Assembly: GCF_021298855.1 (NCBI RefSeq)
Contig: NZ_JAJTHI010000046.1
Coordinates: forward strand, 1 to 34,702
DNA from: Gemmatimonas sp.
GTDB lineage: Bacteria > Gemmatimonadota > Gemmatimonadetes > Gemmatimonadales > Gemmatimonadaceae
Direction: 5' to 3'
Length of the DNA: 34,702 nucleotides
Positions 7,798 to 34,470 of this stretch are shown here, piece after piece. A program made the position numbers and the translations under genes. The stretch's first letter is position 1. The number at the start of each line of letters is the position of its first letter. The notes under the pieces were generated by a model, which was not told where the DNA came from, did no database searches, and saw only the letters and a program-made list of their open reading frames with translations.

Positions 7798-7912
7798 TGA
7801 ACCAAGAACCAAGAACTAAAAACTAAGAACTAAGAACTGAGTACCGCGAACCTCTCGCGGACCACGGGGAATTTCTGGTTCGCAGTGAACGTTCTTCGTT
7901 GTCGGTTCTTCT
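7798..7912. repeat. Intergenic element, family B: GAACCAA/GAACTAA degenerate repeats with inverted arms
   Basis: Between the convergent kinase and FliS-like genes, 7799-7840 is a run of GAACCAAGAACCAAGAACTAA-type heptamers, conspicuously AT-rich against the background. A 6-bp GC hairpin (7844-7860) follows. Then, in inverted orientation, GTTCTTCGTTGTCGGTTCTTC (about 7889-7909) is a degenerate complement of the left arm. The layout resembles that of families C and D. Confidence 0.6.
7844..7860 (+). terminator. Hairpin downstream of the histidine kinase gene
   Basis: CCGCGA (7844-7849) and TCGCGG (7855-7860) form a 6-bp stem inside the family B element. There is no T-run. It may end the two-component transcript. 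Confidence 0.35.
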
Positions 7913-20651: not shown

Positions 20652-20805
20652 GGCGCGTCGGGGACGCGCCTGGGTATGACAAGGCAGGGGGCAGGGTGCC
20701 GGTGCTCAGGGAGAAGGAAGCAGGACCGTTTCCCCCTCACTCCCTGCCCCCTGCCCCCTGCCCCCTGCTCCCTCCCTTGCGAACCCAACGCGCGCGCCAG
20801 CGCGC
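20652..20805. repeat. Intergenic element, family C copy 1 (GACAAGG / GGGGGCAGG inverted arms with end hairpins)
   Basis: A left hairpin (GGCGCGT-CGGGG-ACGCGCC, 20652-20670) is followed by ATGACAAGGCAGGGGGCAGGG (20676-20696). After a purine-rich core, the right arm is TCCCTGCCCCCTGCCCCCTG... ending CTCCCTCCCTTGCGAACCC (about 20740-20786). The right hairpin GCGCGC-GCCA-GCGCGC is at 20790-20805. The element fills the gap between the convergent M16 and membrane-glycosidase genes, and its hairpins could terminate both. No ORF is supported inside. Confidence 0.75.
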
Positions 20806-25191: not shown

Positions 25192-25490
25192 CGGCGGAAC
25201 GGCGTACTGCGGCGTACCTGCAGACGGCAGACGGCAGGAACCACAGCACGCAGTGCGCAGGAATGCGGAAGAACAACACGGCGGCGTGCGCTGCGCGCCG
25301 CCGCCGATGTCCCAACCGCAAAGGAAATCGGGCGCCCCGCGAAGCGGTGGCGCCCGTTGTGTTCAACCACATCCCTGCCGTACTGCCCACTGTGGTTTCT
25401 GTCGTCTGCCGTCTGCTGGTCAAGCGCAGTTCAGACCGCAGTAACTCCCGCAGTTACTCCCGCAGTACCCCCGCCGTTACGCCCGCCGCC
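25192..25490. repeat. Intergenic element, family D: GCAGACGGCAG inverted arms with GTACTGCGG repeats
   Basis: This fills the 285-nt gap between the convergent dsbA-like and 119-aa genes. The left arm GCAGACGGCAGACGGCAG + GAACCACAG (about 25220-25246) is matched at 25 of 27 positions by the inverse of the right arm (about 25389-25415). Outside the arms lie GTAACGGCGG and GTACTGCGG-type units: GGCGTACTGCGGCGTAC on the left, and three GCAGTTACTCCC-like units at about 25436-25470 on the right. The core holds a GC hairpin at about 25279-25304 and a TTCG-loop hairpin (25330-25355). The right end provides the stop codon and last residues of the 119-aa gene. Confidence 0.7.
25330..25355 (-). terminator. 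Terminator hairpin inside element D
   Basis: GGGCGCC (25330-25336) pairs with GGCGCCC (25349-25355), with an inner CCGC/GCGG stem. On the minus strand the loop reads TTCG and the hairpin is followed by GATTTCCTTTG, a T-rich tract. It would end the transcript of the 119-aa gene. Confidence 0.65.
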
Positions 25491-25836
25491 GCCGCGCCGC
25501 CGCCTGGTCCAGCCGCAGTTCCGGCATGGGCGCCGCCTGTTCCGCCGTCGCGCCGGGCTCGGGCACCAGCGCCTCGCCCAGCGCCACCAGCGCGCGGGTC
25601 ACGACCACACTGGCCAGCGGCTCCGGCACGGCAAGCTCCCGCACATAAATGTCGAGTGCCCGCTCGTAGCCCACGTCGGTGGCGAGCGTATCCACGAACA
25701 GCAGCGCATTGTCCACGTGCGCCCGAATGAGGGCCTCTTCCGCGCGCGCCTGAGCGAGCCGCAACCGCTGCTCGGCGTCAGCCGACAGCTTGCGGGGGAA
25801 GAGGGTTTCCGGGAAGAGCTTGCTGAGAATGGACAT
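25477..25836 (-). CDS. Helical protein of unknown function (119 aa)
   Basis: A 119-aa soluble helical protein: SILSKLFPETLFPRKLSADA, then RLRLAQARAEEALIRAHVDNALLFVDTLATDVGYERALDIYVRELAV and a further helix, with a Pro/Ala/Arg-rich tail ending ARRRRA. No family is recognised. The start is the ATG at 25836 with AGGAC at proper spacing. The last several codons run into the end of repeat element D, whose GTAACGGCGG sequence supplies the TAA stop, so the original C-terminus was probably shorter or different. A strong hairpin plus T-run lies upstream on the opposite strand and belongs to a family C element. Confidence 0.75.
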   Translation of the reverse strand: MSILSKLFPETLFPRKLSADAEQRLRLAQARAEEALIRAHVDNALLFVDTLATDVGYERALDIYVRELAVPEPLASVVVTRALVALGEALVPEPGATAEQAAPMPELRLDQAAARRRRA

Positions 25837-25903: not shown

Positions 25904-26056
25904 GCCGCGCCTGGCGGCGCGGCTTTTGTGACGAGGAAGGGGGCAGGGGGCAGGGGATCGGGAAGAAGGCGGAAGCATCTGCTCCCTTCTTCCTGATCCC
26001 CCGCCCCCTGCCCCCTCCCTTGTCAACCAAAGCGGCGCGCCCACCGGGTGCGCCGC
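25904..26056. repeat. Intergenic element, family C copy 2 (near-perfect palindrome, about 45-bp arms)
   Basis: The left end is a perfect hairpin (GCCGCGCC-TGGC-GGCGCGGC, 25904-25923) with TTTTG, then GTGACGAGGAAGGGGGCAGG and further repeats to about 25975. The right arm (about 25982-26027) is its near-exact inverse down to GATC-GGAAGAAGG in the core, and ends CCCTTGTCAACCAAA. The right hairpin is GCGGCGC...GCGCCGC (26032-26056). The right hairpin can terminate acs. The left hairpin faces no gene ending there, so it belongs to the element itself. Confidence 0.8.
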
Positions 26057-31433: not shown

Positions 31434-31599
31434 GGCCGCGCGGAGCGCGGCCTTTTGTTGACAAGGCAGGGAGCAGGAAGAAGGGCTTCAGGGGGGCAGG
31501 AAGCAGGGGGCAACCACGCGTTGGCGCCCTCTTCACTCTGCACCCTGACGGCCTTCCCCCTGCTTCCTGCCTTGTCAAAAGAGCGCGCCACAGGCGCGC
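31434..31599. repeat. Intergenic element, family C copy 3, with hemD terminator
   Basis: The left end is GGCCGCG-CGGAG-CGCGGCC (31434-31452) plus TTTT, a canonical intrinsic terminator for hemD. GTTGACAAGGCAGG and purine repeats run to about 31513. The right arm (about 31527-31580) ends CCCCCTGCTTCCTGCCTTGTCAAAAG, an inverse of the left arm. The right hairpin is GCGCGCC-ACA-GGCGCGC (31583-31599); read on the minus strand it is followed by CTCTTTTG. No minus-strand gene ends here, so the right terminator-like hairpin is part of the element. Confidence 0.8.
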
Positions 31600-34244: not shown

Positions 34245-34470
34245 TTTGGGTCGTGGCGGGATTGTGGCTTGGTCATGGCTTTGCCATGGCTGGGTCGTGG
34301 TTTGGTCGTGGTTTGGTCGTGGCTTGGTCGTGGCAGGCGGTGGTAGCCCGCCCCCGTCACGCCATGCACCCCCTGCGCGCGTTGCTTCGGGGGTGGCCGA
34401 GGCGCTGACGCGCCCGGCGTCACCCCCTCAGAGACGCGCTACGGGCGGCATGGCGCGCCGGGGGCTGACA
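34245..34470 (+). repeat. Intergenic element, family A copy 2: GGTCGTGG tandem repeats plus conserved block
   Basis: Positions 34245-34340 consist of degenerate TTTGGTCGTGG units (at least four clear copies plus variants such as TTGCCATGGC). Then follow CACCCCCTGCGCGCGTTGCTT, GGGGTGGCCG (34390-34399), CCGGCGTCACCCCCTCAG (34414-34431) and GACGCGCTACGGGCGGC. The same elements in the same order occur inverted at 1420-1616, including the identical 18-mer. It lies directly downstream of ppa, as copy 1 lies downstream of acnA. Confidence 0.7.

Follow-up and report, generated by a model that had tools for sequence, protein, structure and literature searches.

This locus raises the question of what a long palindrome is doing between two convergent genes of Gemmatimonas sp. 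(assembly GCF_021298855.1, contig NZ_JAJTHI010000046.1; the 34,702 nucleotides analysed are called the window below), and whether it has altered the end of a neighbouring protein. The original prediction, covering the interval 25192-25490, which comprises a core and its outer flanks, assigned the palindrome to a repeat family D and proposed that it had invaded a coding end. Our main reading, to which we give a probability of about 0.6, is that family D is a lineage-restricted, non-coding, non-autonomous palindrome of the REP/BIME/MITE type, settling at the 3' ends of genes as a putative terminator. Coordinates of the features are collected in Table 1.

Table 1. Features at and around the family D element of the window.
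Feature	Position	Strand	Evidence
Upstream convergent gene, DsbA-like thioredoxin-fold protein, 240 aa	24469..25191	+	Pfam Thioredoxin_4 8.1e-31, DSBA 2.8e-10
Left outer flank, copy-specific, partly inverse to right outer flank	25192..25219		Flank comparisons
Core element (family D), full palindrome, three helices	25220..25416		Fold z -13, 29-copy alignment A1, model R1
Left 27-bp arm, GCAGACGGCAGACGGCAGGAACCACAG	25220..25246	+	Sequence, alignment
Inner hairpin 1; minus-strand T-rich tail 25278-25270	25279..25306		Helix 2: 95.9% of cells paired; mean 5.17 T per 9, 29 copies
Inner hairpin 2; T-rich tracts 25357-25365 (plus) and 25328-25320 (minus)	25329..25356		Helix 3: 97.2% of cells paired; means 5.38 and 5.45 T per 9
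Right 27-bp arm, inverse of left, 25/27 matched	25390..25416	-	Sequence
Right outer flank, degenerate 12-bp units, reaching last codons of 119-aa gene	25417..25486		TRF
119-aa gene, genus-conserved, convergent with dsbA-like gene	25477..25836	-	Matches in 21/30 genus genomes including own

The core is a non-coding palindrome of 197 bases, and the 27-bp arms described in the original prediction are real, with the number of matched positions given there. Among the inverted repeats listed for the window, the longest contains them and has 52-nt arms (25206-25257 and 25379-25430; 79% complementary). The number of outer units differs between the sides, as had also been stated: TRF reports a degenerate 12-bp repeat of 4.3 copies on the right (25436-25486), and the left side carries roughly one TACTGCGG unit. 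The predicted folding energy of the core is -140.2 kcal/mol versus -80.6 +- 4.6 for 200 dinucleotide shuffles, none of which folded as well, and either strand forms one long stem closing two inner hairpins (z -13.0 and -11.2 by strand).

The dsbA-like gene converges on the 119-aa gene, whose product matched no Pfam family, in nearly all of the orthologue loci. The proposal that family D invaded the 3' end of the 119-aa gene, giving it its stop, draws on the overlap of the outer tandem units with the last codons (25477-25486), and this contact of the right edge with the gene stands. The stop and the tail, however, are present in relatives without the element: none of the 20 orthologues has a D arm within 420 nt downstream of the stop, the tail AAARRRRA is exact in five of them (G020, G019, G015, G003 and G014), and most others end in close variants such as ARRRA. 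Because relatives without D have the same tail, the stop (TAA or TGA) is older than the element. Orthologues with this tail and no D arm nearby are what the original prediction had itself listed as counting against it; invasion of the coding end is almost certainly wrong, and as a correction the repeat is no longer credited with shaping the end of a protein.

The gap between the two genes is 285 bp in the window's own genome (G000; 4.09 Mb in 91 contigs) and 188 bp in G020, its closest relative. Of the 17 other relatives in which the pair converges with a positive gap, 16 have a spacing of 7 to 107 bp and the last has 436 bp; at the remaining two orthologue loci, the called frames overlap (-68) in one and no dsbA-like gene lies within the locus in the other. 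In eight relatives, the gap contains a stem of at least nine consecutive pairs, which is often a simple bidirectional terminator. From this comparison, the D element of G000 therefore occupies a position at which relatives carry a short terminator or next to nothing. In G020, a different inverted repeat with (GGCAGGTAGCAGGA)n arms lies between the same two genes. To judge from these sequences, the element appears to have filled a short gap and to have left both proteins unaltered.

Other repeats were observed in the same window. A second palindrome with 41-nt arms (90% complementary) containing GGGGGCA heptads lies at 25929-26025 between the 119-aa and acetyl-CoA synthetase genes, similar palindromes are found at 31458-31578 and 20683-20762, and intergenic tandem arrays of 7, 7 and 11 bp (CCACGAC, GAACTAA and GGTCGTGGCTT) occupy 1542-1611, 7799-7838 and 34249-34334, respectively.

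The genome search suggested by the original prediction revealed a dispersed family. When G000 was searched with the element, 87 matches on both strands were obtained and merged by eye into about 41 unrelated places, at which 200-bp sequences are 85-95% similar. Nine of these places are at contig ends, which is expected because repeats break assemblies. In a DNA search of 30 genomes of the genus, matches at E<=0.001 were found in nine and were strong only in G000, G020 and G005, and a family-wide search gave matches at E<=1e-6 in four of 179 genomes, all within one of 35 genera. The covariance model R1 was trained on 29 copies, 21 from G000 and eight from G020, and gives 214.9 bits for the window copy, which is one of them; it has matches at E<=0.001 in 13 of the 30 genus genomes, mostly weak or shorter forms. 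The arm word CTGCCGTCTGC occurs 117 times in G000 and is rare in most of the genus, with at least 25 occurrences per genome in six of the 30; when named genomes were scanned with one exact arm pattern, a single record, Gemmatimonas sp. UBA2094, was found. Taken over these searches, family D seems to be narrow in range and lineage-restricted. The arm word also occurs in a mirror arrangement in G019 (L127) and G015, with the loop positioned where the G000 form has its outer end, and G015 has a 119-bp unit carrying a mirror-arranged D-like hairpin in 5.9 tandem copies that are 99% alike (L143:1083-1784).

For the analysis of genomic context, the nine contig-end places were dropped, leaving 31 sites with 32 copies, and genes were called by a codon-usage gene caller that recovered the genes of the window. 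All 31 sites lie wholly or almost wholly between genes, the overlap with the end of a called gene reaching at most 30 bp at two of them, and no called gene covers a core. Twelve sites are convergent, 17 tandem and two divergent, and 29 of the 31 lie downstream of at least one gene. Other gaps of at least 30 bp at the same loci (n=65) comprise 6 convergent, 39 tandem and 20 divergent ones, and thus convergent gaps are enriched among the D sites versus the rest (Fisher p 0.0014).

The fold is conserved among the copies. RNAalifold on the 29-copy alignment gave 56 pairs, 16 of which are changed on both sides, with a small covariation term (-1.88 of -93 kcal/mol). Pairs were counted after minor completion of the structure to 57 pairs (1648 cells in 29 copies), and 94.1% of the cells are paired versus 88.6 +- 0.4 after shuffling and 28-55% in slid controls; cells changed on both sides number 90 versus 32.8 +- 4.4. 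These paired changes are found in the long stem and in the two inner hairpins. Such a strong conserved fold is what a family of structured non-coding RNA genes acting in trans would have, and we consider that explanation very improbable, since no Rfam family matches the window at the gathering threshold, the low-threshold matches are generic long-hairpin microRNA models far below their cut-offs, both strands fold about equally well, and the copies are many and variable.

The inner hairpins resemble terminators. The arrangement of a bidirectional intrinsic terminator, a GC-rich hairpin and then a T-rich tract, is found on three of the four hairpin sides at 5.2-5.5 T per 9, with interrupted tracts: the two outward sides have means of 5.38 and 5.17, the minus side of hairpin 2 has 5.45, and the plus side of hairpin 1 has 2.55, at an overall T fraction of 0.153. 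Within the element, a simple scan for consensus terminators yielded a single terminator-like site, a weak one. The layout of the family D core thus looks like that of a pair of intrinsic terminators serving both strands, with T tracts that are interrupted; the two hairpins would act back to back, and the window element probably functions as a two-way transcription stop.

The paired changes can also come from template-switch repair and not from selection. Another explanation is that family D is not mobile: palindromes would arise and stay perfect by template switching during replication and be exchanged between copies by gene conversion. Template switching is described as able to make and mend stems in the relevant part of PMC8794818. 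Within a copy, the left and right arms have 98 mismatches versus 121.3 +- 6.0 when arms are permuted between copies (0 of 20,000), and the three-letter steps adjoining the arms show a matched-pair change in eight of the 29 copies read as exact. The step in the window copy is mismatched (CAC versus TGG) and looks as if it had recombined. The outer flanks prolong the palindrome in a copy-specific manner, their inverse match being better within than between copies (19 of the 21 own-genome copies; 68-551 of 20,000 permutations reach the observed value, depending on window size); a first crude comparison of this symmetry was weak (mean 21.9 own versus 18.5 cross). The copy C41a and its G020 orthologue L095 have 18 differing columns out of 198; three adjacent pairs of hairpin 1 are changed on both sides and still pair, and one changed pair is broken; two changes that keep pairing separate C45 from L099, and none separates C7 from L094. 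Template switching and conversion alone, however, leave the 85-95% similar sequences at some 41 unrelated places unaccounted for, as well as the copy at the window site, which is free of D in the 20 orthologues. An immobile family D is possible and in our judgment rather unlikely.

Sites can be compared between genomes. When 25 sites of G000 were compared by eye with the regions fetched from G020, D was present at nine, absent at 12 and undecided at four. Arm-like remnants are seen in G020 at C41b and C75 and in G005 at C44a and C44c, and because they remain, some of the differences are deletions; at such sites D appears to be older and to have been lost, and its absence is not always ancestral. 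At C37, C19b, C58, C52 and C44d, G020 has a short gap without a remnant. A clean insertion into a hairpin loop was considered for C41b and rejected: G020 keeps a right-arm-like stretch there, which may be a deletion remnant. Some sites have other families. G020 has a GGGGGCA-type palindrome at C32, and at L048 (~1503-1650) in G003 a single terminator hairpin, followed by a T tail, sits between a left arm resembling that of D and a CCCCCTG-type right arm; by eye, this is the site of the G000 copy C44d. The original prediction had placed family D in one class of elements with different sequence families, and inverted, partly tandem-repeat arms around structured cores, together with other such families at equivalent sites in G020 and G003, agree with this.

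Under our main reading, D would spread as non-autonomous mobile DNA served by an enzyme in trans, and copies would persist where a terminator is wanted or tolerated. The tentative candidate for the enzyme, and the only one of its class seen, would be the single Y1 transposase of G000, a RAYT/TIRYT-type protein of 200 aa (Pfam Y1_Tnp; L085:1270-1872, minus strand, contig 30). Its gene is flanked by inverted tandem 12-mer arrays (GAGCTGGGGTCA)n, which are also found at about ten other places in G000, and copies in relatives are flanked by inverted repeats of the GGGGTCAG type; no D arms appear in the flanks inspected at any of the eight Y1 loci of the genus, of which L085 is cut by a contig end. 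A Y1 transposase is present in five of the six genomes rich in CTGCCGTCTGC (at least 25) versus three of the 24 others (Fisher p 0.002, kinship uncontrolled, with the 59% complete G005 among the genomes), and no Y1 transposase is found in G003 (99% complete) despite its D-like matches. On these associations, mobilisation of D in trans by the Y1 transposase is possible.

Another kind of mobility would make D a MITE belonging to a classical DDE insertion sequence that carries the same terminal inverted repeats (GCAGACGGCAG ends), as its size near 200 bp, 27-bp inverted ends and want of coding capacity might suggest. The direct similarity of the flanks, however, is not above permutation at four window sizes, giving no sign of a target-site duplication; the ends of the copies in the 29-copy alignment fray with no sharp stop; and no DDE transposase was found among the ten genes scanned, which are the RAYT gene and nine adjoining contig-end D copies. 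We regard a DDE-type origin as distinctly unlikely.

The nearest known systems share some of these properties. GTAG REPs, BIMEs and REPINs with RAYT transposases are described in the pertinent parts of PMC3733652 and PMC3116915 as dispersed inverted pairs that form long hairpins and are extragenic. As far as those descriptions go, D is like them in consisting of dispersed inverted doublets with long hairpins that are extragenic, mostly in tandem or convergent gaps, and carry compensatory changes, and in having its unit in both mirror arrangements (the form of G000, and an inside-out form seen at L127 and in the tandem array of G015). It is unlike REPs and REPINs in its length of about 197 bp, in its two inner hairpins with T-rich tails, and in that no RAYT gene is flanked by D. 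No GTAG tag lies within 10 nt of the core ends in any of the 29 copies, and the CGTC of D lies inside the paired 27-bp arm in the alignment, not as an unpaired tag before an 8-9 bp stem as in CGTC REPs. Integron attC core sites have the form RYYYAAC ... GTTRRRY, and none was found in the 29 copies.

TIRtrons, RAYT-like genes whose long terminal inverted repeats share GGGGWSAS, are treated in a section of PMC3733652, and by that account the Gemmatimonas Y1 transposase, with inverted flanks containing GGGGTCAG, fits them; the D arms, in contrast, have another sequence, and D is not the repeat flanking the Y1 gene. The MITEs named in the same source (NEMIS, RUP and ERIC) are, within what it says of them, like D in being 70-300 bp elements beside genes with terminal inverted repeats and no coding capacity, but for D no target duplication was seen and no parent element was found among the ten genes scanned. 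Inverted pairs of uptake signals are used as terminators in Neisseria and Pasteurellaceae, and about 1,892 signal copies are reported for N. meningitidis Z2491, according to the portion of PMC1852404 on this subject. To the extent covered there, D resembles them as a repeated word in inverted pairs that is enriched between convergent genes and differs in number, G000 having 117 arm words. Eight letters, GCCGTCTG, are common to the D arm and the Neisseria signal GCCGTCTGAA, and this may be a matter of chance. A genus-wide uptake signal was rejected, the arm word being enriched in only six of the 30 genomes.

On present evidence from these comparisons, D appears to be neither a GTAG REP/REPIN, nor a CGTC REP, nor a classical MITE. 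We found no description of it in our literature searches for repetitive palindromic sequences or inverted repeats of Gemmatimonas, and PMC11237797, in its passages on repeats, gives counts for Gemmatimonadota chromosomes without a description of family D. We therefore regard D as a new family within the broad REP/BIME/MITE kind.

A wider proposal, which we think unlikely and offer as speculation, is that this Gemmatimonas lineage assembles its terminator regions from interchangeable palindromic modules. The modules, inverted arms made of short tandem words and inner terminator hairpins, would be swapped, turned inside out, joined across families as in the G003 hybrid, and re-matched through template switching. 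Terminators would then be mobile repeats that repair themselves, and a single Y1 transposase that recognises structure and not arm sequence might move them in trans. As a lineage-restricted palindrome of the REP/BIME/MITE type, family D extends REP- and MITE-like repeats to the little-studied Gemmatimonadota, and its core resembles a terminator already fitted for both directions. Gain, loss and exchange can be followed at orthologous sites where some genomes have D, others lack it and others carry a different family.
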